Shown: positions 5,541 through 57,440 of the stretch, piece after piece
Layout: each line of letters begins with the position of its first letter
Position numbering within the stretch: position 1 is the first letter of the stretch
Origin: a virus
Strand: one strand, 5' to 3'
IMG/VR virus record: IMGVR_UViG_3300032214_001248
Coordinates: 1-59,796 of that record
DNA length: 59,796 nucleotides
Notes under the pieces: model-generated
Databases searched by the model: none
What the model was told of the DNA's origin: nothing
The model's input: the letters and a program-made list of their open reading frames with translations, nothing else
Translations under genes and position numbers: made by a program

Positions 5541-8500
5541 TTACTTCAAATTATCTACGATTTTTTGAAGTTTATCAATCTTTTCATTTTGCTCTTTAAT
5601 TGCTTCAATTAACACACCAATAATATTTCCATAAGATACTGATTTCAAACCACTATTACTAGTTTCAACTACTTCGGGAAGAACTTTTTCAATTTCTTGT
5701 GCAATAACACCAATTGAAGGTTTATTGTTATTTATCCAATCATAACGAACACCTTCAAGTTGTTTTACAAGGTCTATAGCATTTTCAATAGGTCTTATGT
5801 TGGTTTTTTGAGTTTGATCTGATAATGATGTTAGAATTGTTGCTGAAAGATTTCCTGTTGATGGATTAAACTGAAGATTTGTAGAAGAAACATTCACTGA
5901 AGAAATAGTTCCAGAAGTTGCATCCTCAAAAAGAATATATCTTGTTGCATCTGTGGAAGTATCATCACTTACGGACAGTGCAGTGGCAGTTGAATAAGTA
6001 TTACTGTCTATAGAACCATCTGCCTTTAAAAACTGACTTGAAGTTCCCCCTGGTCTTATAAAAGAGCTTGCTGTTACAACACCAGAAACATTAAGTTGTT
6101 TGGCAAATAATGTAGTACCAGTAACTGTAGTAATTCCAGCAAACGTTGAAATTCCAGATACATTAAGTGATCCAAGAGTTCCAACCGAAGTTAATGATGA
6201 ATTAACTACTCCAGAACCTAGAGTTGTTGATGTAAGAACTGAAGTATTGTTGATTTTATAATCATTACCCGTAGTAGCATTAAAACCACCTGAAGTTACA
6301 ATACCCGAAGCGTTTAATTGCTTGGTAAATAAAGTCGCTCCTGTTACTGTAGTAATTCCAGCAAACGTTGAAATTCCAGAGACATTTAATGAGTTTAATG
6401 TTCCAACCGAAGTTAATGATGAGTTAACAACACCAGAACCTAGAGTTGTTGCATTAAGAACTGAAGTGTTGTTAATTTCATAATCATTACCCGTAGTAGC
6501 ATTAAAACCACCAGAAGTTATGATTCCAGAAACTAATGTATTACCAACAACATGAAGTTTTGATGTTGGATTTGTAATACCAACTCCGAGATTACCAGAA
6601 GAAAGAATAGAAACTGTAGAAGATGATAAATTATTTCCAAAGGAGTTAATATATCCATCATATGTAATAACACCTAAACCAGTGTGAAAATAGATATCTC
6701 CAGTTGCTGCTAATCTGATATTATCTTGAATTGATGTTCCAGTATCATTACCTTTAAATATTAACAACTCAGACTTATCACTAGCACCATAAAGTCTTTC
6801 GGAAATTACTGTGTGATTATATCCACTATCTCCATTAGCACCAGGGAATCTGATTTGACTTTCCGAAAAAATTGAACAAGCTCCATTAGTAGTTAAAGAA
6901 GTTGCAGCAACAACAGTAAATGTATTTGAGTCTGTTACTGTTACTTGATTATAATATGAATCAACCGCAGTTCCTGTACTATAATCAATATAAACAGAAT
7001 CCCCAGTAGTTAATCCATGATTAGTACAAGTAACGGTTACAGTTGTTGTACCAACCATCACATATGTACCAGTTTTATTGGCAACACCAATTCTCAAATT
7101 AGTTCCTAAATCAGTGTATCCTGGTGTAGTAGTGTTTTTACCAACACTAAATCCAGCAGTAGTGTTTAAATAAGAACCCGAAGTATTATTAGAATCTAAA
7201 ACTAATCTTAGAGTGCCAGAACCATCTCTAGCAGCAAATTGCATATTATTTGAGGCATCTTGGTAGATACCAGCTTCATTTGAAATACCTGTTGTAACTG
7301 CTCTAACTAACCATCTTGCTGCAGATGCAGTTTGATTAGTTACATTAAATATGTTAATCGCAGTATTTGCTATAGCAACCGCACCGGATGTTAAATTAAT
7401 TGCAAGTGGTCTCAAACTATTGAAAGTCCCTGAAGGAGTTGTTCCAGCAGCACTTAATAGATGATAATACTCACTACCATCATTTCTTAAAATTACTGTA
7501 GGAACATTAGTTCCAGTATGTAAAAGTAATTGATTTCCTGCGTTTACAAACTGACCCAATCCAGCAACATCTAATTTTGCAGTTGGATTTGTGGATCCTA
7601 TACCCAAAGAACCAGAAATATAAGCACTAGCACCATTAACTTGAAGTGTCTGTGATGCTGTTCCTGTTGATGTCCCAGAACCAATCAATACAGGTCCATT
7701 AGTAAATGTAGAAATTCCAGTTATTCGGAGATCATTAAAATTATTAGGTGCATTTATAATTGCAGATTCAATTGTTGCTGTTGTTGTGGCGTCGAGGGAA
7801 GCAATATTCTGAAGTTGTCTGGAGGAACTAACGATTTCAGTGGCACCAATGTTTAATGAGTTGGTAGTTGTAATACCAAAATTATTAATGTTTTGTACTA
7901 ATAAATTAGTAGCAGTTGTAACTCCAAGAGTAGTTATTCCTGTTACAACAAGTCCTGCTGTAACAAGTCTAGTAAGAGTTCCAACAGAAGTTAATGATGA
8001 GTTAACAACACCAGAACCTAGAGTTGTTGCATTAAGAACTGAAGTGTTGTTAATTTCATAATCATTACCCGTAGTAGCATTAAAACCACTAGAAGTTACG
8101 ATACCAGAAACTAATGCATCACCAACAACATGAAGTTTCGATGTTGGAGTTATGGTCCCTATACCCGTATTTCCAGTTAAAGTTGTGGCAATTATAGTTC
8201 CACCAGTTCCTACTCTAAGAATTCCTGTTGTGGTGACACCAGATACATTAAGTGTTCCAAGAGTTCCAACAGAAGTTAATGATGAATTAACAACACCAGA
8301 ACCTAGAGTTGTTGCATTAAGAACTGAAGTATTGTTTATTGTATAATCATTACCTGTAGTAAGATTAAAACTACTAGAAGTTACGATACCAGAAACTAAT
8401 GCATTACCAACAACATGAAGTTTCGATACTGGATTTGTGGTTCCTATACCTGCATCTCCATTGTCAGTTACTACAAATACTCTACCATTAGTAGATATTC

Positions 8501-11500
8501 CTAAAGCATTTGCTACTCCTACTTGAAATCTTTGTAAAGGATTTGTAGTTCCTATGCCAGCATTTCCACTTTGTAAAAATCTTGCCCATTCAGTACTACC
8601 TTGTCCAAATGCCATTCCACCATTAGCACCATTTGGATTATATTCAATATATCCTTGTTCAGTTAAATCAGTTACGTTAACTAACTTTGTTGATGCACTA
8701 GTCCAACTACTTCCCGTCTCATTTCTTGTTGCTTTGATTCTCAAATATGTCGTATTATTATTGAGATAAACAAACTGTGCAACGGTAAGTGCAGAACCAA
8801 CAGTTCCTGGAAGTGTGATTCCAGTTCCAACGTTTGAAATAGTAGCATTCGGTGAGAGTTGTAAATTTGCTGATGGATTAGTAACACCAACTCCAAGATT
8901 ACCAAAAACATAAGCACCACCACTACTAACTTGGAGTGGTTGTGATGCTGTTCCTGTTGATGTTCCACTACCTATTAATAGAGAACCATTTTGTAAAGAT
9001 AATACTATAGTACCTGGATTATAAGCAAGATTAGTATTTGCTCTAATAGATCCTACACCAGAAACTCCTTCAAAGAAAGTTAAATATCTAGTTGCATTTT
9101 GAGTGTCTGATATGACTGCAACAGTAGCAGCACCACCTACTAATGTTCCAGTAATATTATCTACATAAAAATTTGACCATCTTTTACTTGGAGAACCAAT
9201 ATTATAAGTAGCGTCTATAGATGGCAGAACATCACCACCAAAAGTAGAAATGCCAGAAGTGTTTAATTGCTTGGTAAATAAAGTCGCTCCTGTTACTGTA
9301 GTAATTCCAGCAAACGTTGAAATTCCAGTAATATTGAGATTTTGTGAAGTTAAACTTGTTGCTCCCGCAATACCTAAAGTAGATACGCCAGCATTAATTT
9401 GTCCACTAAATGTTCTTGCCGTTACAACACCAGTAAAGTTTCCATCACCAACAACAAAAAGTTTAGAAGTTGGTGCATCAGATCCAATACCAAGATTAGT
9501 TCCGGTATTAATCGTGATCGTTCCAACACCAACAGTTGGTCCAATATTGATTTGAGTGAATGAACCAGAAGCACCACCAGTACCAAAGTTGATTGTTTTG
9601 GTTGTAGCAGCAGCAGAAACCCCAGTAGCAAGGTTGAGTATTTGAGAGGTGGTTGCTTGTCCTAATGTAATCGCACCAGTTTGCAATGCACCACCAATAG
9701 TAACTGTGCCTGTGGTGTATGATTGGGCAGTAAAGTTTTGAGTGGTTCCAGTATGAGCAATGTTGCCAGTACTAACAGTAATGTTCCCACTGAATGTTTG
9801 TGATAAACCAAGAGTTGCTACTGTATCATCGGCAGTAATTAATGGCAAATTAAGAGTTCTATTCGCAGCAATTGCAGCAGCGGCAATTCCATATTCAAAA
9901 GTGTTCGCTGGATTTCTTATTTTTAATTGAGAAGATAAGAATGTTGAAATTCCAGAGACATTTAATGAATTCAATGTTCCAACAGAAGTTAATGATGAGT
10001 TAACGACACCAGAACCTAGAGTTGTTGATGTAAGAACTGAAGTATTGTTGATTTCATAATCATTACCTGCCGTAGCATTAAAACCACTAGAAGTTACGAT
10101 ACCAGAAACTAATGCATTACCAATAACATGAAGTTTCGATGTTGGATTTGTAGATCCTATACCCAGAGAACCAAAGACATAAGCACCACCGCCATTAACT
10201 TGAAGTGGTTGTGATGCTGTTCCTGTTGATGTTCCACTACCTATTAATAGAGGACCATTGGTAAGTGTAGAAATTCCTGTTACAGTTACGTTTCTATCGA
10301 CATTTAAATCCGTATCGATATCTACTCTATTATTAAAGGTTGATAGTCCTGTTACAGTTACGTTCCTATCGACATTTAAATCAGTATCAATGTCTACTCT
10401 GCTATTAAAGGTTGATAGTCCTACTACAGTTAAGTTCCTATCGACATTTAAATCCGTATCGATATCTACTCTGCTATTAAAGGTTGATAGTCCTACTACA
10501 GTTACGTTCCTATCGACATTTAAATCCGTATCGATATCTACTCTATTGTTAAATGTAGAGATACCAGTTACCAATAATCTATCATCAACAGTTACCTGAC
10601 CAGCAAAAGAATCAATCGTTAAGATTCCGGATGTGGTATCAATCTCATTATCACCACTCACACCTATTTGGACATTATCAATATAGGCACCACCATTAGC
10701 ATCAATATAATTAGTAAATGTAGAGATGCCAGTTATAGTTGCATTCCTATCAACATTTAAATCAGTATCAATGTCTACTCTATTATTGAAGGTTGATAGT
10801 CCTACTACCGTTACGTTCCTATCAACATTTAAATCAGTATCAATGTCTACTCTATTATTGAAGGTTGATAGTCCTACTACCGTTACGTTCCTATCAACAT
10901 TTAAATCCGTATCAATGTCTACTCTATTATTAAATGTAGAGATACCTGTTACTAATACATCACCAACAACATGAATTTTTGATGTTGGATTTGTGGTTCC
11001 TATACCCACTCTAGATGCGGATAAAGGAACATAAACGTCGGAGTTGAAGGTTGATATTCCAGTTACTAATAATCTGTCATCAACAGTTACCTGACCAGCA
11101 AAAGAATCAATCGTTAAGATTCCGGATGTAGTATCAATTTCATTATCACCACTTATACCTATTTGAATGTTATCAATATAAGCACCGCCATTGGCATCAA
11201 TGTAATTAGTAAATGTGGAGATGCCAGTTACAGTTACGTTTCTATCGACATTTAAATCCGTATCAATATCTACTCTGCTATTAAATGTAGAAATGCCAGT
11301 TACTAATAATCTGTCATCAACAGTTACCTGACCAGCAAAAGAATCGAGAGTTAGAATCCCTGTGGTGGTATCAATCTCATTATCACCACTTACGCCTATC
11401 TGAACATTATCAATATAAGCACCACCATTAGCATCAATATAATTAGTAAATGTAGAAATTCCTGTTACAGTTACGTTCCTATCGACATTTAAATCCGTAT

Positions 11501-12311
11501 CGATATCTACTCTGCTATTAAATGTAGAAAACCCAACTACAATTACGTTCCTATCAACATTTAAATCCGTATCAATGTCTACTCTATTGTTAAATGTAGA
11601 GATGCCAGTTACTAATGAATCACCAACAACATGAAGTTTTGATGTTGGATTTGTGGTTGCAAGTCCAACATTACCAACTGTACTTACAACAAAGGGACTT
11701 GAATCCGGATTTGCAGCATCTTCAACAACTAATGGATTACCAGTACCTGTTTGAGTAATTCTGACTAAATCGGTAGATGTTGATCCTGAAAAGAGTCCCG
11801 CAATACCATCTGATTGTGGAACTACATGCAATTCCGCTCCCGGAGTGGTTGTTCCTATACCGACATTATCAGAGATATAAGCTCCGCCTCCATGAACTTG
11901 TAATTTTTGATTTGATGTTCCCGTCGAAGAATATGTTCCAACAACTATTGACCCACTTCTTACAAATACAGAAGTTTCAATTGTTGATATTCCAGTAACT
12001 CTAATGTCACCTCTTACATAAACAGCAGTTTGTCCTGTACTTACTGGAGATCGTATATCTAACAAATACCCAGGTAAGGACGTTCCAATTCCTACAGAAT
12101 TTCCAAGTCCCGTTGGTCCAGTAACAACAGAAAAGGTATTTCTGGATGAACCAACATATAAAGTTTTTGACCCAATATCTTCGGTAACTTCTAACTTATA
12201 TTGGGGAATAGTAGTTCCAATACCAACGCGGTCAACATCACCATCTGCAACAATAAGATTTGTATTAACTTCTAACCCGTTCTTTACGACAAAATTCTTA
12301 TTAATTGCCAT
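5541..12311 (-). CDS. Giant modular tail fibre with C-terminal S74 intramolecular chaperone
   Basis: 2256 residues. The N-terminal region has repeated VGIGTT-P and SKLHVVG units. Residues about 240-690 hold ten copies of RVDIDTDLNVDRN in roughly 24-residue units, interleaved with a longer TNYIDANGGAYID / SFAGQVTVDDRLLVTG block. Later come five TTLGSGVVNSSLTSVGTL units. The last 95 residues are an endosialidase-type chaperone (peptidase S74): LSDQTQKTNIRPIENAIDL, VRYDW, IGVIAQEIEKVLPEVV and a final coiled coil. S74 domains trimerise fibres and then cut themselves off, typically at the Ser of a Ser-Asp pair, here about 2164/2165. An AGGGGGAG ribosome site and a late promoter precede the ATG. 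Role: probable receptor-binding long fibre. Confidence 0.9.
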   Translation of the reverse strand: MAINKNFVVKNGLEVNTNLIVADGDVDRVGIGTTIPQYKLEVTEDIGSKTLYVGSSRNTFSVVTGPTGLGNSVGIGTSLPGYLLDIRSPVSTGQTAVYVRGDIRVTGISTIETSVFVRSGSIVVGTYSSTGTSNQKLQVHGGGAYISDNVGIGTTTPGAELHVVPQSDGIAGLFSGSTSTDLVRITQTGTGNPLVVEDAANPDSSPFVVSTVGNVGLATTNPTSKLHVVGDSLVTGISTFNNRVDIDTDLNVDRNVIVVGFSTFNSRVDIDTDLNVDRNVTVTGISTFTNYIDANGGAYIDNVQIGVSGDNEIDTTTGILTLDSFAGQVTVDDRLLVTGISTFNSRVDIDTDLNVDRNVTVTGISTFTNYIDANGGAYIDNIQIGISGDNEIDTTSGILTIDSFAGQVTVDDRLLVTGISTFNSDVYVPLSASRVGIGTTNPTSKIHVVGDVLVTGISTFNNRVDIDTDLNVDRNVTVVGLSTFNNRVDIDTDLNVDRNVTVVGLSTFNNRVDIDTDLNVDRNATITGISTFTNYIDANGGAYIDNVQIGVSGDNEIDTTSGILTIDSFAGQVTVDDRLLVTGISTFNNRVDIDTDLNVDRNVTVVGLSTFNSRVDIDTDLNVDRNLTVVGLSTFNSRVDIDTDLNVDRNVTVTGLSTFNNRVDIDTDLNVDRNVTVTGISTLTNGPLLIGSGTSTGTASQPLQVNGGGAYVFGSLGIGSTNPTSKLHVIGNALVSGIVTSSGFNATAGNDYEINNTSVLTSTTLGSGVVNSSLTSVGTLNSLNVSGISTFLSSQLKIRNPANTFEYGIAAAAIAANRTLNLPLITADDTVATLGLSQTFSGNITVSTGNIAHTGTTQNFTAQSYTTGTVTIGGALQTGAITLGQATTSQILNLATGVSAAATTKTINFGTGGASGSFTQINIGPTVGVGTITINTGTNLGIGSDAPTSKLFVVGDGNFTGVVTARTFSGQINAGVSTLGIAGATSLTSQNLNITGISTFAGITTVTGATLFTKQLNTSGISTFGGDVLPSIDATYNIGSPSKRWSNFYVDNITGTLVGGAATVAVISDTQNATRYLTFFEGVSGVGSIRANTNLAYNPGTIVLSLQNGSLLIGSGTSTGTASQPLQVSSGGAYVFGNLGVGVTNPSANLQLSPNATISNVGTGITLPGTVGSALTVAQFVYLNNNTTYLRIKATRNETGSSWTSASTKLVNVTDLTEQGYIEYNPNGANGGMAFGQGSTEWARFLQSGNAGIGTTNPLQRFQVGVANALGISTNGRVFVVTDNGDAGIGTTNPVSKLHVVGNALVSGIVTSSSFNLTTGNDYTINNTSVLNATTLGSGVVNSSLTSVGTLGTLNVSGVTTTGILRVGTGGTIIATTLTGNTGIGTITPTSKLHVVGDALVSGIVTSSGFNATTGNDYEINNTSVLNATTLGSGVVNSSLTSVGTLTRLVTAGLVVTGITTLGVTTATNLLVQNINNFGITTTNSLNIGATEIVSSSRQLQNIASLDATTTATIESAIINAPNNFNDLRITGISTFTNGPVLIGSGTSTGTASQTLQVNGASAYISGSLGIGSTNPTAKLDVAGLGQFVNAGNQLLLHTGTNVPTVILRNDGSEYYHLLSAAGTTPSGTFNSLRPLAINLTSGAVAIANTAINIFNVTNQTASAARWLVRAVTTGISNEAGIYQDASNNMQFAARDGSGTLRLVLDSNNTSGSYLNTTAGFSVGKNTTTPGYTDLGTNLRIGVANKTGTYVMVGTTTVTVTCTNHGLTTGDSVYIDYSTGTAVDSYYNQVTVTDSNTFTVVAATSLTTNGACSIFSESQIRFPGANGDSGYNHTVISERLYGASDKSELLIFKGNDTGTSIQDNIRLAATGDIYFHTGLGVITYDGYINSFGNNLSSSTVSILSSGNLGVGITNPTSKLHVVGNTLVSGIITSGGFNATTGNDYEINNTSVLNATTLGSGVVNSSLTSVGTLNSLNVSGISTFAGITTVTGATLFTKQLNASGIVTSGGFNATTGNDYKINNTSVLTSTTLGSGVVNSSLTSVGTLGSLNVSGISTFAGITTVTGTTLFAKQLNVSGVVTASSFIRPGGTSSQFLKADGSIDSNTYSTATALSVSDDTSTDATRYILFEDATSGTISSVNVSSTNLQFNPSTGNLSATILTSLSDQTQKTNIRPIENAIDLVKQLEGVRYDWINNNKPSIGVIAQEIEKVLPEVVETSNSGLKSVSYGNIIGVLIEAIKEQNEKIDKLQKIVDNLK
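10260..11600 (-). repeat. Tandem coding repeats of about 72 nt in the fibre gene
   Basis: The DNA encoding the ten DIDTDLNVDRN units is nearly identical between copies (plus-strand blocks of the type gacatttaaatccgtatc recur). Several 72-nt copies are directly adjacent; others are separated by a longer block of about 190 nt that is itself present three times. Such near-identity favours unequal recombination and copy-number change. Confidence 0.85.
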
Positions 12312-24306: not shown

Positions 24307-24377
24307 AGCCCCATAACAGAATTGAACTGTTCTCTGCAGTTTACAAAACTGCTGCATCACCACAATGCTTATAGGGC
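24307..24377 (-). tRNA. tRNA-Thr (UGU anticodon)
   Basis: A 71-nt cloverleaf on the minus strand: acceptor GCCCTAT/ATGGGGC, D stem GCAT/ATGC, anticodon stem GCAGT/ACTGC around loop TTTGTAA (anticodon TGT), T stem AACAG/CTGTT around TTCAATT, discriminator T, no encoded CCA. It reads ACA codons, frequent in this AT-rich phage. Confidence 0.88.
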
Positions 24378-25194: not shown

Positions 25195-25478
25195 TAGGGC
25201 GAGCGAGACTTGAACTCGCACGAGCATACGCTCAACAGATTTTCTTACCACTATAGTTTTCACTACCCTTTCAGTTTGTGGTCTGGACTATACCTTCACC
25301 ATACCTTTCGATTTAGGTGTTCCCCGTCTAGTCTCTACACCTTCAAGATTTCTCTTGCTTGGCTCGGTATTGCCATTTTACAGGTTTCACCGAATTTGAG
25401 GAATTACACTCATAAGGTTTCCCAAATGAGGCTCAATTTTCATAAGTCTGGTGTGTCTACCGATTCCACCACCGCCCC
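25195..25478 (-). tRNA. tRNA-Leu (UAA anticodon) interrupted by a group I intron
   Basis: The 5' exon (25444-25478) starts GGGGCGGTGGTGG with D stem GTG/CAC and ends CAGACTT; the 3' exon (25195-25243) starts AAAATCTG. Joined, they give anticodon loop CTTAAAA (UAA), a long variable arm with stem GAGC/GCTC, T stem GCGAG/CTCGC around TTCAAGT, acceptor GGGGCGG/TCGCCCT with G-U ends, and discriminator A73 as leucine tRNAs need. The intron splits the anticodon after U34, the same site as the cyanobacterial tRNA-Leu(UAA) intron. A C-U mismatch at 27-43 is the only weak pair. UUA is a favoured codon in AT-rich phage genes. Confidence 0.9.
25244..25443 (-). ncRNA. Group I intron (cyanobacterial tRNA-Leu type, IC3-like), 200 nt
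   Basis: Core elements in order: IGS with GAG pairing exon CTT (U-G wobble at the splice site), P3/P4-type TTCGGTGAAACC, Q-type AATACCGAGCCAAGC, R-type AGAGACTAGACGGG, S-type GGTATAGTCC (GACTA/TAGTC gives P7) and a terminal G. These match the plan of the Anabaena tRNA-Leu intron, but the intron is shorter (200 versus about 250 nt) and carries a short ATG insertion in the P1 loop. No ORF lies inside; mobility would depend on an outside endonuclease. Confidence 0.9.
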
Positions 25479-49954: not shown

Positions 49955-50638
49955 TCAAATTTTCCATTCAATTTCAACACCACCCAATGCTTCTGCAGTC
50001 GTTGGAAACTGTTCACAGAATATTTCTTTACAAAGTTTAGCAATATCCATATGTTCTTTTTGAGTTCCATTTTTTTCACGAAGTGCGATGTATGTTATCC
50101 ATGACCTTACAGAACCGGTCATATAGAGGCGTGTGGGCGTTGCTAGAGGCAGAACGAACCTTGCACACTCCTTTGCCACGCCGTGCTCTAGAAGGCGGTT
50201 GTAGAGGCGTAGAGAGTGCTCAAAATGAACGCGGATATCTTCTGTTAGTGTCAGCTTCAAATAGTCTGGAATGTCGTCAATACTGTTCTGACGATTCTTA
50301 GTATCCTGACGGCGAAGTTCAGGAAGAGGAATAGATTTTCCTAGCAGACTTGCATCAGCATACCGCTGCGAAAATTCCTGAAATGTAAAACTCCTATGTC
50401 GAAGTATTTGAGCTGCTACACCGCGTGTAGTATTAATCTCAACAGTCATTGTTGCCTGTTCAAAAATACTCCAGTGTTGATGCTTAATACAATACTTAAG
50501 TAGTCCAGAGAAATTATCATTCTCTTGGTTATTTGGATTACTTACACGAGCACAATATGCCATGTGCTTCTCTGCATCAGGAGTAACACTAATTAGTTTT
50601 ACTTCTGGTTTCATTAGTTCGTAGTCTTCAAACTTCAT
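49955..50638 (-). CDS. thyX: FAD-dependent thymidylate synthase
   Basis: ATG at 50638 (MKFEDYE) gives 227 residues; an ATG two codons earlier is possible and longer starts overlap the upstream gene. Motif RHRSFTFQEFSQRY is the ThyX signature (RHR-x7-S). Others: HMAYCARVSNPNNQENDNFS, HWSIFEQATMTVEI, AKECARFVLPLATPTRLYMT. ThyX makes dTMP from dUMP with FAD, NADPH and methylene-THF, for phage DNA. Its 3' half is GC-richer than its 5' half, suggesting mosaic ancestry. Overlaps the 55-aa gene by 11 nt. Confidence 0.92.
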   Translation of the reverse strand: MKFEDYELMKPEVKLISVTPDAEKHMAYCARVSNPNNQENDNFSGLLKYCIKHQHWSIFEQATMTVEINTTRGVAAQILRHRSFTFQEFSQRYADASLLGKSIPLPELRRQDTKNRQNSIDDIPDYLKLTLTEDIRVHFEHSLRLYNRLLEHGVAKECARFVLPLATPTRLYMTGSVRSWITYIALREKNGTQKEHMDIAKLCKEIFCEQFPTTAEALGGVEIEWKI

Positions 50639-50795
50639 CGTCATAAAATACTTCGTCGTAATCTGAAATGTATCGGGAAATTTCTTCATATTGTGGAGGT
50701 TTGTATTCATCCACATCAGAATTAATTTCCGACTTAAGACATTCTACTAGAGATTCAAGATTTTGTACAATTAGCTTAAGCTTTTCTTTATCCAT
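50628..50795 (-). CDS. Small acidic protein, 55 aa
   Basis: ATG at 50795, TGA at 50628. MDKEKLKLIVQNLESLVECL, KSEINSDVDEYKPPQYEEIS, then a Tyr/Asp-rich tail (SDYDEVFYDDEV). It is helical then acidic and disordered. It lies between the terminator/early promoter unit at 50.82-50.85 kb and thyX, overlapping thyX by 11 nt; likely the first gene of that early transcript. Function unknown. Confidence 0.65.
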   Translation of the reverse strand: MDKEKLKLIVQNLESLVECLKSEINSDVDEYKPPQYEEISRYISDYDEVFYDDEV

Positions 50796-50818
50796 TCATA
50801 TCAACCCGGACAAAGGTA

Positions 50819-50847
50819 ATTATACACAAAAAAAGAGGGGTAGTCAA
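50819..50847 (-). promoter_or_regulatory. Sigma70-type early promoter (TTGACT-N17-TATAAT) nested in a terminator
   Basis: Minus strand: TTGACT (50842-50847), 17-nt spacer, TATAAT (50819-50824). The -35 element is made by the terminator stem and loop. It drives the 55-aa gene and thyX. Confidence 0.75.
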
Positions 50848-50853
50848 CCCCTC
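50835..50853 (-). terminator. Terminator of the 165-aa gene
   Basis: GAGGGGT/ACCCCTC arms with 5-nt loop TGACT, then T7 on the minus strand. The unit, together with the flanking promoter -10, recurs at 51.38-51.41 kb. Confidence 0.8.
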
Positions 50854-50858
50854 CTATA

Positions 50859-51356
50859 TTATGCCAAAGATTTAGATAGTTCTGAGAGAATGGAATACGC
50901 AGTATCCTGAGGAACATCAGTAAATTGAGCATTCATTTTTTTCCCCTGAATAATAATTACACACATATCATCCGAAGATGGTTCTGGGATAGTTCCAATA
51001 ATAGTTGAGGTTCCATCTTGATTTTCAGAAAAAACTAATTGTCCAATTACAGACTCTGAAAAAATATTAGGAAGTTTATTTCTATATCCATCCCAATCTG
51101 GAAGAAGTTTATGATTGTTAAATCTTGAAGAAATCATATCAGTAACTTTCATTGACTCAATTTCCGTGAAATAGGGCCAGTGCTTTTTAATAATATTTTT
51201 AATTCCTCTCAGACTTTTACTAGATGGAGTTCTTGCTACTTGACCCGCAAGTGCTTCTTTAATAATATTTCTCCACATTTTTAAAAATTCTGTTTCAAAA
51301 TGAGGATACTTTTCATACAAATCTTTAACTTTTAATCCAAGAGTTTTTGAAGCCAT
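50859..51356 (-). CDS. Hypothetical protein, 165 aa
   Basis: ATG at 51356 (MASKTLGLKVKDLYEKYPHF); a longer frame upstream would begin inside the terminator/promoter unit and is rejected. Helical N-half (FLKMWRNIIKEALAGQVART, SLRGIKNIIKKHWPYF) and a beta-rich C-half (LVFSENQDGTSTIIGTIPEP, DDMCVIIIQGKKMNAQF). No domain recognised. Own early promoter about 25 nt upstream and terminator at its end make it a single-gene unit. Confidence 0.65.
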   Translation of the reverse strand: MASKTLGLKVKDLYEKYPHFETEFLKMWRNIIKEALAGQVARTPSSKSLRGIKNIIKKHWPYFTEIESMKVTDMISSRFNNHKLLPDWDGYRNKLPNIFSESVIGQLVFSENQDGTSTIIGTIPEPSSDDMCVIIIQGKKMNAQFTDVPQDTAYSILSELSKSLA

Positions 51357-51378
51357 AGTAAAATAAAAAACTAAATCC

Positions 51379-51407
51379 ATCATACACAAAAAAAGAGGGG
51401 TAGTCAA
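51379..51407 (-). promoter_or_regulatory. Second sigma70-type early promoter (TTGACT-N17-TATGAT)
   Basis: TTGACT (51402-51407), 17-nt spacer identical to the first copy, TATGAT (51379-51384). Drives the 165-aa gene. Copy two of the terminator/promoter unit. Confidence 0.65.
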
Positions 51408-51414
51408 CCCCCTC
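51395..51414 (-). terminator. Terminator of the 106-aa gene (second copy)
   Basis: GAGGGG/CCCCTC stem with 7-8 nt loop, then T7 on the minus strand. Sequence matches the copy at 50.84 kb over 30 nt, with one extra C in the arm. Confidence 0.75.
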
Positions 51415-51418
51415 GTTC

Positions 51419-51739
51419 TCAATCTCTTTGTCTCCAGTCATCTGGTTTATCTTCAGTGAAAAAATCTATAATATCATCAACTGTATCAAATCCAGACACT
51501 CCTTTGGACTCGTGACCAATTCCACCAATATCAAGTTGGTTTAAAAAATCATCCAATCCACCTTCTTGCATATCGGGATTTTCTGCTTTCCGTCTTGCTT
51601 GACGAAGCAGTGTACCAGCACTTCTATTTGCCTGGGCAAGTTTCTCTGCCCAGATTATTTCGTTTAATTCTACTAATTCACCTTTTACAATTCGTTCACA
51701 TATTGCTTCTAGACGTAAACGATATTGAGTAGAGAGCAT
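51419..51739 (-). CDS. Hypothetical protein, 106 aa
   Basis: 106 residues. A helical basic N-half, MLSTQYRLRLEAICERIVKG, ELVELNEIIWAEKLAQANRS, AGTLLRQARRKAEN, and an acidic C-half with LDDFLNQLDIGG and DDIIDFFTEDKPDDW. A GGAG site and a late promoter precede the ATG, while the terminator/early-promoter unit follows its stop. Recurs as a small gene beside speD in related phages, as far as I recall; function unknown. Confidence 0.7.
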   Translation of the reverse strand: MLSTQYRLRLEAICERIVKGELVELNEIIWAEKLAQANRSAGTLLRQARRKAENPDMQEGGLDDFLNQLDIGGIGHESKGVSGFDTVDDIIDFFTEDKPDDWRQRD

Positions 51740-51759: not shown

Positions 51760-51767
51760 TATTTATT
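51760..51767 (-). promoter_or_regulatory. T4-type late promoter (AATAAATA)
   Basis: AATAAATA on the minus strand about 21 nt before the 106-aa gene; overlaps the speD stop. Confidence 0.6.
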
Positions 51768-52093
51768 TACCGCTCAATATAACTCAGAGTATGATTCTGA
51801 GCATAAAGTTGTTGAATAATGATATCACAACCAATCTTAGGATTGCAATCACCACAAGTATAGACATCCACTGCCGCTTTACCTTCTTCAGGCCAGGTAT
51901 GAATTGAGATATGACTTTCTGAAAGCAAACAAATGACAGTGACCCCCTGCGGTTCAAACTTTTTTGAGATAGTCTGAATCACAGTGGCACCGCTGGCAGA
52001 TGCTGCGTTTTCTAGTAAGTCTATAAGACAACGCTCGTCGTCCAAAAGGACAAACGAGCATCCGTACAAGTTAAGTAAGTAATGCTTCCCCAT
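51767..52093 (-). CDS. speD: S-adenosylmethionine decarboxylase proenzyme
   Basis: 108 residues, the usual length of short bacterial SpeD. GKHYLLNLYGCSFVLLDDER, then LLSESHISIHTWPEEGKAAV and DVYTCGDCNP: cleavage between Glu and Ser in SESHIS makes the pyruvoyl cofactor; the His and Cys are the catalytic partners. It makes decarboxylated AdoMet for spermidine, which may balance DNA charge or change host photosynthetic membranes. speD is recurrent in T4-like cyanophages. Confidence 0.9.
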   Translation of the reverse strand: MGKHYLLNLYGCSFVLLDDERCLIDLLENAASASGATVIQTISKKFEPQGVTVICLLSESHISIHTWPEEGKAAVDVYTCGDCNPKIGCDIIIQQLYAQNHTLSYIER

Positions 52094-54680: not shown

Positions 54681-55048
54681 GAAGCATTATTTCTTCTTGG
54701 GCGATAACTATAAAGATTTGTTGGTTTTGGCGGTTTCATCCAGTCTTCTATTTTATTCAAACTATCTTCATTATAGAAGTCTTGTTGGACATACCATAAC
54801 TTCCAATACTCATGCCCTTTAGATTGATTGCAAGAATGACAACAGCACACCACATTTCTTGTGATATCTAAACCACCTTTTGATTGTGGAACAACGTGGT
54901 CTAATGTTAGATTTTCTTCAGAGTCACAGTAAGCACATTTGTGACTCCAACTTTCTTTTATGTGTTTTCTCCACAATCGTTTTGCTTCGGATGAACTTGT
55001 TGTCTGCAAATTAAACAAGTAATCTTGAGGCGACTGGAGAATATCCAT
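54677..55048 (-). CDS. HNH endonuclease
   Basis: 123 residues. Core KCAYCDSEENLTLDHVVPQS, KGGLDITRNVVCCCHSCNQS, KGHEYWKLW gives C-x2-C, L-x-DH-x-x-P, N, C-x2-C-N of the McrA-like HNH family with Zn. Late promoter 21 nt upstream and ATGA with the next small gene. Position between gnd and the glutaredoxin/small-gene block suggests a mobile insertion or a phage packaging/homing endonuclease. Confidence 0.85.
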   Translation of the reverse strand: MDILQSPQDYLFNLQTTSSSEAKRLWRKHIKESWSHKCAYCDSEENLTLDHVVPQSKGGLDITRNVVCCCHSCNQSKGHEYWKLWYVQQDFYNEDSLNKIEDWMKPPKPTNLYSYRPRRNNAS

Positions 55049-55068
55049 AAGTACATGCGACTTGTGAA

Positions 55069-55076
55069 TATTTATT
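55069..55076 (-). promoter_or_regulatory. T4-type late promoter (AATAAATA)
   Basis: AATAAATA on the minus strand directly after the gnd stop codon, 21 nt before the HNH start. Only a weak bulged stem surrounds it. Confidence 0.6.
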
Positions 55077-56099
55077 TTATCTTACATGATGCCCACCAAA
55101 CATATAACGCATTCCATTTAGGATTTTTGCTCCGAATGATCCGAGATTGCGTGAGTTAAATCTTTCAAATAGGGCAGTAGTAATAACAGGAGCGGGAACC
55201 CCCAAGTCCACAGCGGCAGAAACAGTCCAACGACCCTCACCGCTGTCGGATACGCCTCCAGAGAACTGTTCAAGGCGACCATCCCTGCGTAGCACATCAG
55301 CAGTAAGGTCAAGTAGCCAAGACCCAACCACGCTACCACGGCGCCATAACTCAGCAACTTCAGCAACATCAATATCATAGCAGTAACTTTCTGGGTCTGC
55401 CATAGGGGCAACCTCTGCGTCTCCTTCTCTAACATACTGAGCACCTGCGTTTGCATTCTTAATAATATTGAATCCTTCAGCATACGCTTGCATAATACCA
55501 TACTCAATACCATTATGCACCATCTTCACAAAGTGTCCTGCTCCAGGACCACCGCAATGCAACCAACCGTATTCGGCAGAAGTTACATCAGATGTTGGAT
55601 CCGTTCTATGGCAGGAGTGAATATCTGGGGAGAGGGCGGAGAATATCTTTGAACAAGTGGCGACTGCAGTATCTCCACCTCCAACCATAAGACAGTATCC
55701 ACGATCCAGACCATAAACACCACCGCTAGTGCCACAATCAATATATTGGATACCCATCTTTGCCAAACGTTCTGCTCTTTTCCGACTGTCTTTAAAATTG
55801 CTATTGCCATGATCAATAATAATATCTCCTTCACTACAATATCGTAGTAACTCATTGATTGTCTCCTCTACTGTTTCGGCAGGTACAACCATCTGAAAGA
55901 TACCTGGTTTATTTTGTCCCTTGACTACTTGAACAAGGCTTTGTATAGAATTTGCAACTCCATTAACATATCCGTTTTCGTAGGCTTCTTGTGCTTTTTC
56001 ATAGTTTCTCCGATAACCCCAAACTTCAATTCCTGCTTTCATCATACGACGGGACATACCTTCGCCCATCCGCCCAAGACCAATTAATCCTACTTTCAT
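55077..56099 (-). CDS. gnd: 6-phosphogluconate dehydrogenase, short decarboxylating type
   Basis: 340 residues. MKVGLIGLGRMGEGMSRRMM holds the Rossmann motif; DHGNSNFKDSRKRAERLAKM, GTSGGVYGLDRGYCLMVGGG and HCGGPGAGHFVKMVHNGIEY (catalytic Lys, HNGIEY) are all present. This is the short class (about 300-340 aa), distinct from the 470-aa host enzyme. It converts 6-phosphogluconate to ribulose-5-phosphate and CO2 with NAD(P)H. DNA is clearly GC-richer than zwf/talC, suggesting later capture. AGGAG ribosome site. Operon talC-zwf-gnd. Confidence 0.92.
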   Translation of the reverse strand: MKVGLIGLGRMGEGMSRRMMKAGIEVWGYRRNYEKAQEAYENGYVNGVANSIQSLVQVVKGQNKPGIFQMVVPAETVEETINELLRYCSEGDIIIDHGNSNFKDSRKRAERLAKMGIQYIDCGTSGGVYGLDRGYCLMVGGGDTAVATCSKIFSALSPDIHSCHRTDPTSDVTSAEYGWLHCGGPGAGHFVKMVHNGIEYGIMQAYAEGFNIIKNANAGAQYVREGDAEVAPMADPESYCYDIDVAEVAELWRRGSVVGSWLLDLTADVLRRDGRLEQFSGGVSDSGEGRWTVSAAVDLGVPAPVITTALFERFNSRNLGSFGAKILNGMRYMFGGHHVR

Positions 56100-56108
56100 T
56101 TTTTACTC

Positions 56109-57440
56109 CTATTTTAATTTGAGTGGATAGTCCCACTTAGTAACAAGTTCTGTTTTTTGAAATGGTCCCCAATTTCCTGGAGAATAAAGATATGGCATTG
56201 TCATAATACGACAATGATCTCCAGTACATAAAAGATCATCAACAATTCTCCAAGATTCCAACACTTCATCAGCATGAACGAAGTGTGATTGATCTTCATT
56301 TACTGCATCATAAAATAGTTTTACATATCCATCAATTGCTTTTTCTACTGGATAATGATACTGAAGAAGTGCTGATTCTACTTTATCATTTAGTCCAGGA
56401 GATTTAATGTCAATACGCATATCTAAATGAGGATCTGGTTGCAATCTCATTACAATTCTATCGTTGCATTCGTGCCCATCAAATAACTGTTGTGGGGGAG
56501 ATCTAAATTTAATTACAACCTCAACACAATTTACAGGCATTTTTTTACCCGTCATAAAGTGAAATGGAACTCCTTTCCATCTCCAGTTATCAACATAAAG
56601 ATCTCCAGCAACAAAAGTTGGAGTTTGAGAACCTGGTGTTACTCCTTCCTCATTTTTATATTCATCATATTGTCCAAGAACTACATTATCACCAAGTCTA
56701 GTTGCGGCAAGAACCTTAACTTTTTCTCTGCGAATTTCTTTTGCATCATTTTTACAAGGAGGTTCCATTGCAATCAATGCAAGTACCTGAAGCATATGGT
56801 TTTGAAGCATATCTCTCACGGCACCAGCAGTATCATAATACTGAGCACGACCTTCACAACCAATTGTTTCAGTTGCAAAGATTTGAACTTCTTCTACGAA
56901 GTTTCTATTCCAAAGTGGTTCAAGAAGAATATTGCTAAAACGAGTGGCAAGAATGTTATTAACAGTATCTTTACCCAGATAATGGTCAATGCGATATACT
57001 TGTTTTTCGCGTAAATATCCAGCCACCACAGATTGTAAGTGATTAGCAGATTGAAGATCGGTGCCAAAAGGTTTCTCAATAATGACTCTAGATTTTTCTG
57101 CGTCATCTAATTTACCTGCCTCTTTTAGATTGGTAATTGCATCAACATATCTTTCTGGAGGAACTGATAGAAAATAAGTGGTGTCATCATAAGAATCTAT
57201 CAGTTTTAAAGATTCTAAATCACTCAGATCACAAGAAACATAATCAAGTCTTTTAATAAACTCTTGCGAATAATTACCTAAAGTTTCAACCCAACTCTCC
57301 TTACTGTGTTTAGTTCTGGAAGCACCAATAATTTTAAACCCTTTTGGTAAAAGATTTTTCTTGTGAAGAGTGTAAAGTGCTGGTATAAGTTTCCTTTTAC
57401 AAAGATCTCCAGTTGCTCCAAATATTACTATTGATTTCAT
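56109..57440 (-). CDS. zwf: Glucose-6-phosphate dehydrogenase
   Basis: 443 residues, shorter than the usual 480-510. SIVIFGATGDLCKRKLIPAL binds NADP; VIIEKPFG, then RIDHYLGKDTVNNILATRF is the substrate site (RIDHYLGK). FVEEVQIFATETIGCEGRAQ and YYDTAGAVRDMLQNHMLQVL follow. First, committed step of the oxidative pentose phosphate pathway, producing NADPH. Overlaps talC by ATGA; 9 nt before gnd. Confidence 0.95.
   Translation of the reverse strand: MKSIVIFGATGDLCKRKLIPALYTLHKKNLLPKGFKIIGASRTKHSKESWVETLGNYSQEFIKRLDYVSCDLSDLESLKLIDSYDDTTYFLSVPPERYVDAITNLKEAGKLDDAEKSRVIIEKPFGTDLQSANHLQSVVAGYLREKQVYRIDHYLGKDTVNNILATRFSNILLEPLWNRNFVEEVQIFATETIGCEGRAQYYDTAGAVRDMLQNHMLQVLALIAMEPPCKNDAKEIRREKVKVLAATRLGDNVVLGQYDEYKNEEGVTPGSQTPTFVAGDLYVDNWRWKGVPFHFMTGKKMPVNCVEVVIKFRSPPQQLFDGHECNDRIVMRLQPDPHLDMRIDIKSPGLNDKVESALLQYHYPVEKAIDGYVKLFYDAVNEDQSHFVHADEVLESWRIVDDLLCTGDHCRIMTMPYLYSPGNWGPFQKTELVTKWDYPLKLK

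Follow-up and report, generated by a model that had tools for sequence, protein, structure and literature searches.

The question raised by this locus is whether one short DNA element can both end the transcription of a gene and begin that of its neighbour. The window, i.e. the whole 59.8-kb stretch of DNA that was analysed, is a virus record with relatives among the T4-like phages of Synechococcus and Prochlorococcus. An earlier note on it had pointed to a 30-nt element, repeated 560 nt apart, that nests a sigma70-type promoter in a terminator and may spread as a regulatory cassette. Each copy very probably combines an intrinsic terminator and an early (host sigma70-type) promoter in approximately 37 nt between same-strand genes.

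The two copies and their gene neighbourhood

The repeat itself is borne out: GGGGTTGACTACCCCTCTTTTTTTGTGTAT is present in exactly two copies in the window, both on the minus strand (50822-50851 and 51382-51411) and 560 nt apart, and no third copy is found in the 59.8 kb at up to 3 mismatches. By chance, 0 copies are expected (100 dinucleotide shuffles). The hairpin with its T7 tail, TTGACT, the 17-nt spacer and the TATAAT or TATGAT hexamer are likewise seen in both copies, as had been claimed. Copy 1 (50819-50855, minus strand) contains a hairpin at 50855-50833, formed by the 5' arm AGGAGGGGT (50855-50847), the loop TGACT and a 3' arm extending to 50833, with T7 at 50834-50828; its predicted promoter comprises the -35 hexamer TTGACT (50847-50842), a 17-nt spacer and the -10 hexamer TATAAT (50824-50819). 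Copy 2 (51379-51414, minus strand) contains a hairpin at 51414-51395, in which GAGGGG (51414-51409) and CCCCTC (51400-51395) enclose the loop GTTGACTA, with T7 at 51394-51388, and a predicted promoter with TTGACT at 51407-51402, a 17-nt spacer and TATGAT at 51384-51379. The layout is thus shared: the hairpin loop contains TTGACT, the 17-nt spacer is made up of the 3' arm and T7, and the -10 hexamer follows.

The predicted RNA hairpins have energies of -14.2 and -12.8 kcal/mol for copies 1 and 2, respectively (z -3.3 and -2.9), and the two copies are the best terminator-like sites of the 48-55 kb region, where 17 such sites were found vs 3.0 expected. They are also among the top promoter-like sites of this region, with 11/12 and 10/12 matches, respectively. 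The RNA starts predicted earlier, at 50812 and 51372, agree with a +1 at 7 or 8 nt past the -10 hexamer.

Each copy lies directly between two minus-strand genes. In the direction of transcription, A106 (51419-51739, phrog_507), which copy 2 would end, has its stop codon approximately 4 nt before the hairpin. Beyond copy 2 lies X165, a 165-aa ORF (50859-51356; phrog_18622, function unknown) that begins at ATG 51356, ends at 50859 and is present in some relatives and absent from others. Copy 1 is followed by the small gene B55 (50628-50795, phrog_878), which it would start; the ATG at 50795 lies approximately 17 nt past the predicted +1, and the end of the gene is overlapped by the frame of thyX (Thy1 family; 49955-50716, minus strand). 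A speD-like S-adenosylmethionine decarboxylase gene (51767-52093, minus strand) forms a conserved upstream anchor. Relatives of X165 are found in 10 IMG/VR contigs (69-95% at the amino acid level), while its homologs in S-SM2 and S-WAM2 (42-43%) occupy a different locus, beside mazG.

Three features elsewhere in the window were observed in passing. DNA resembling the cyanophage pentose phosphate genes zwf and gnd is found at 55000-57200, a Group I intron (RF00028) scores above the gathering score at 25262-25453 (minus strand) with a tRNA nearby at 24307-24377 (minus strand), and extensive direct repeats with spacings of 72, 222 and 285 nt, perhaps internal to a structural gene, occupy 6000-11700.

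Conservation of the terminator and promoter halves

Beyond the window, many contigs of marine phages and several isolates conserve the two halves jointly, which upholds, at the level of sequence, the claim that a single element unites a terminator with a sigma70-type promoter. Terminator function is suggested by comparative evidence throughout. Stem positions outside the search pattern are paired in 724 of 761 viral cells vs 72 of 168 cells from cellular genomes, and in an alignment of 29 sequences 98% of the stem cells pair. Non-Watson-Crick stem cells are more often G-U than A-C (86 vs 24), a bias indicative of RNA of the transcribed strand. Furthermore, the covariation score of the 29-row alignment is 0.368 compared to 0.177 after shuffling (reached in 0 of 500 cases) and drops once the partners are moved out of register. 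Stem register differs between phages and the stems covary, while TTGAC is fixed and stays in or at the loop. In the B55 leader, a supposed further covarying hairpin (CCT..AGG) was rejected, as its 5' half precedes the predicted +1.

For the promoter half, the searches fixed only the hairpin, TTGAC and T6, leaving the -10 hexamer free, and were carried out for three loop classes. With near-identical sequences removed and the remaining related sequences each counted separately, a -10 hexamer matching at least 5/6 positions is found at 16-18 nt in 80 of 92 distinct viral elements of the TTGACT class and in 81 of 101 of the GGGTTGACACCC class. The TTGACAA class supports a -10 less strongly, with 21 of 40 distinct viral elements at this threshold and 31 of 40 at 4/6 or better. 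Among control matches from bacterial and archaeal genomes the corresponding number is 3 of 43 (Fisher p 5e-20 against the TTGACT class). The spacer length peaks at 17 nt in viral elements, and at 16 nt as well in the GGGTTGACACCC class. A T4-type late promoter (TATAAATA, for which no -35 is needed) does not fit, as the hexamers are of the form TATAATTA or TATGATGG with a conserved TTGAC at 17 nt. The placement between genes is tight: across 214 distinct elements, the median distance is 7 nt from the end of the upstream frame to the hairpin and 19 nt from the predicted +1 to the next ATG. These counts argue that the overlap of the predicted terminator and promoter is not due to chance.

The exact 29-base pattern (28 fixed bases and one R) is present in 27 IMG/VR stretches. 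The pattern GGTTGACTACC-N14-TATRAT occurs in 98 stretches, mostly with clear hairpins built from different stems; a minority of the 98 are chance matches that have no stem or T-run. BLAST searches of phage records with the 47-nt element gave weak matches only, and most isolates surfaced only with TTGACA-class queries. The Prochlorococcus phages P-SSM2, P-HM1, P-SSM7 and P-TIM68 carry 2-3 elements each. When one -35 mismatch (TTCACA, TTTACA) is allowed, so that some weaker cases are included, nested promoters are found in 2 of 4 strong terminators in the window, 3 of 21 in P-SSM2, 2 of 10 in P-HM1, 3 of 20 in P-SSM7, 2 of 11 in P-TIM68, and 6 of 26 and 3 of 13 in two large IMG/VR records. By the same count, KVP40 has 2 of 58, with a different geometry, and T4, RB49 and Syn9 have 0; the element is not universal in cyanophages, as Syn9 lacks it. 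Variants were observed in P-SSM2 (L452:7242 and 8835) and P-SSM7 (L480, L486), with TTCACA or TTTACA within the loop of the terminator and a hexamer resembling a -10 at 16-17 nt.

A known RNA is located directly downstream of some elements. The manA RNA (RF01745) directly follows the element in six isolates (P-SSM2, P-HM1, P-SSM7, P-TIM68, S-SSM5 and P-TIM40), the first four of which have one element per phage just before it, and the first position of the manA model lies 4-11 nt past the -10 hexamer in all six, at the expected +1. As these isolates were picked because they carry the element, the match represents agreement rather than an independent survey. A further 14 IMG/VR loci with the same leader agree with the isolates. 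The manA motif is a transcribed RNA (Weinberg 2010; PMC2864571), unlike the promoter-terminator upstream of it. The present analysis thereby names a predicted upstream promoter for the manA RNA in six Prochlorococcus and Synechococcus phage isolates. As a side observation, the manA RNA that follows a nested terminator-promoter (L440-L444, L115 and the 14 IMG/VR loci) has a 5' end that fits the predicted start, and glutamine riboswitch (glnA) matches lie near manA RNA in three cyanophage-like contigs (L281, L293, L364). The window itself holds no manA RNA.

Either half might instead be taken alone. It is very improbable that the element is an ordinary terminator whose TTGAC loop overlaps a -10 hexamer by chance, with the downstream genes being served by read-through or other promoters. 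Promoter-like matches are indeed common in the AT-rich 48-55 kb region (38 found, 27 expected), but the proper spacing of the -10 in viral elements compared to the cellular controls argues against this reading, as does the start of manA RNA just past the element. Decoy words in the loops also fail to show the -10 enrichment, except for words that overlap TTGAC, and this control is flawed for CTTGA and ACTTG, which both do so. Operators are classically found as palindromes around -35 boxes, and the palindrome here could serve a phage or host regulator as a DNA operator or cruciform, with no terminator present. This is hardly credible given that the stem sequence varies freely with compensation, whereas an operator would conserve its sequence, that the T-run of the window copies is found on one strand only, and that G-U exceeds A-C mismatches. 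The combination of terminator and promoter is preferred over both.

Gene gain and loss between copies

Approximately 45 relatives carry the element at a single locus, where it precedes B55-thyX and follows A106 or speD; small, changing ORFs occupy the 2-1969 nt that separate it from A106. Twelve relative contigs have the order A106-element-B55 with a gap of 2-9 nt, a single copy of the element and no X165. In contig L020, the sequence that flanks copy 2 upstream in the window and the one that flanks copy 1 downstream are joined through one element. Where X165 is present, it is preceded by its own element in 9 of 10 contigs, and usually a second element lies behind it. The copies flanking X165 are closer to one another within than between genomes (sum 32 vs mean 54, 4 of 720 permutations, six genomes), with the likeness being absent in two of the six (L120 and L122). 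Such within-genome likeness is as expected if the copies recombine, and we infer that recombination between copies caused the gain or loss of X165, with either direction being compatible.

The suggested spread as a cassette is upheld only in a restricted sense, as the exchange of genes at the borders of the element. In favour of it, the copies bracket a gene for which 12 relatives have an empty site, and flanking copies are alike within a genome; against it, there are only approximately 2-6 copies per genome, and these lie mostly at one fixed locus upstream of B55-thyX in relatives. Spread throughout the genome was rejected, with 2 copies in the 59.8 kb and 2-6 per related genome: the element is a few-copy feature and not a freely spreading cassette. 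Movement of X165 with its element to new loci was likewise unsupported, since the S-SM2 and S-WAM2 homologs lie beside mazG and a pattern search found no element next to them.

Proposed working and relation to known elements

Polymerase arriving from the upstream gene would make a G+C-rich hairpin with the loop UUGAC(U) and, once the U-tract is reached, the RNA would be released. As duplex, the same DNA would provide TTGACT, a 17-bp spacer (3' arm and T-run) and TATAAT for initiation in early infection, with the new transcript beginning approximately 7-8 nt past the -10 hexamer, downstream of the hairpin, and having a leader of approximately 17 nt to the next ATG. Each gene would then be its own transcription unit within a very small gap. 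The coupling of hairpin folding to promoter use that the earlier note proposed does not follow from this layout: the hairpin belongs to the old transcript and the new start lies downstream, so that the overlap means a common sequence without necessarily implying common control. Since copies of one sequence recur at gene borders, homologous recombination between them could add or remove the gene that they enclose, as for X165, with the expression of its neighbours unharmed.

Two further readings would add to this explanation and are not alternatives to it. Polymerase ending in the T-run may stay parked on the nested promoter and re-initiate on the next gene, which is a possible but unlikely addition. 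Single-molecule work showed that E. coli polymerase is retained after termination and re-initiates at nearby promoters (PMC6978380, PMC6978322), and the geometry would place a terminating polymerase over the promoter. However, this support comes from the E. coli and not a cyanobacterial polymerase, and the sequence does not require such a step, as compact genomes and recombination suffice for the overlap. If true, promoter output would rise with upstream transcription, and the early genes would form a relay of separate transcripts and not an operon; the element offers a natural substrate for asking whether a terminated polymerase re-initiates in place. More doubtful still is a translation-sensitive gate, in which the upstream stop codon lies in or by the hairpin and a ribosome trailing closely prevents its folding and permits read-through. 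The TGA within TTGAC is the stop codon of the longest upstream frame in 46 of 214 elements, although some of the short frames may not be genes; this matches the GenBank annotation for P-SSM2 regA (L440:2508) and a P-TIM68 gene (L443), in which stop codon, predicted -35 box and putative terminator loop share bases. Against the gate, the stop codons in the window lie approximately 4 nt upstream of the hairpins, and the overlap elsewhere may be mere compaction.

The composite terminator-promoter resembles a class of phage elements known as PeSLs (promoter-early stem-loops), reportedly described in 2010 by Arbiol in the T4-like phages RB49/phi1 and said to have been described in KVP40/nt-1 and T4/PST by Comeau in 2014. 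A PeSL is a repeated sigma70-type promoter with a stem-loop terminator, located between phage genes at sites of gene gain and loss. A high density in hyperplastic regions is typical of RB49/phi1. Recombination between copies, with mini-circles as the product, is also ascribed to PeSLs; for the window element it has indirect support in the likeness of the copies flanking X165 within genomes. The window element agrees with this class in its sigma70-like hexamers at proper spacing (TTGACT-17-TATAAT/TATGAT, with relatives peaking at 17), in its terminator-type stem-loop overlapping the promoter (hairpins, T7 and covariation) and in flanking a gained or lost gene (X165 present or absent, the empty site and the gap of 2-1969 nt). 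It differs from RB49/phi1 in density, with 2 copies in the window and 2-6 per related genome, although density is not defining. As read from their sequences, the hairpin of RB49 elements falls within the spacer, surrounds the -10 or precedes the -35 entirely; in KVP40 elements the 5' arm contains the -35 and the tail is weak. In the window element, by contrast, the loop contains the -35, and the spacer consists of the 3' arm and T7. Hairpin-promoter geometry was not taken as PeSL-defining, as RB49 and KVP40 already differ mutually, but being unlike either makes the window element a variant. Judged by the comparative evidence, this is a genuine composite of terminator and promoter that has been conserved, and it is best regarded as a PeSL variant.

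PeSLs are also described in PMC4503421, according to which they are few in cyanophage S-PM2. No earlier description of the loop geometry was found in the literature searched, which left out Arbiol 2010 and Comeau 2014. In the same phage group, cyanophage sigma70 promoters (BPROM) and terminators (TransTermHP) have been predicted (Sullivan 2010; PMC3037559), and in the portions of that paper bearing on them they are separate features, with no mention of a nested element. The archaeal virus HGTV-1 has a PeSL-like motif, with a promoter-like sequence and an inverted repeat, repeated before many genes (review, PMC3950731); unlike the window element, its promoter is of the archaeal TATA type, and the review describes no -35 within the loop of a terminator. 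With the present element, the PeSL concept would extend to marine cyanophages in a more compact form, whose terminator loop doubles as the -35 box and whose terminator tail doubles as the promoter spacer; in uncultured marine phages, the element may provide a simple means of locating early promoters and points of gene exchange.
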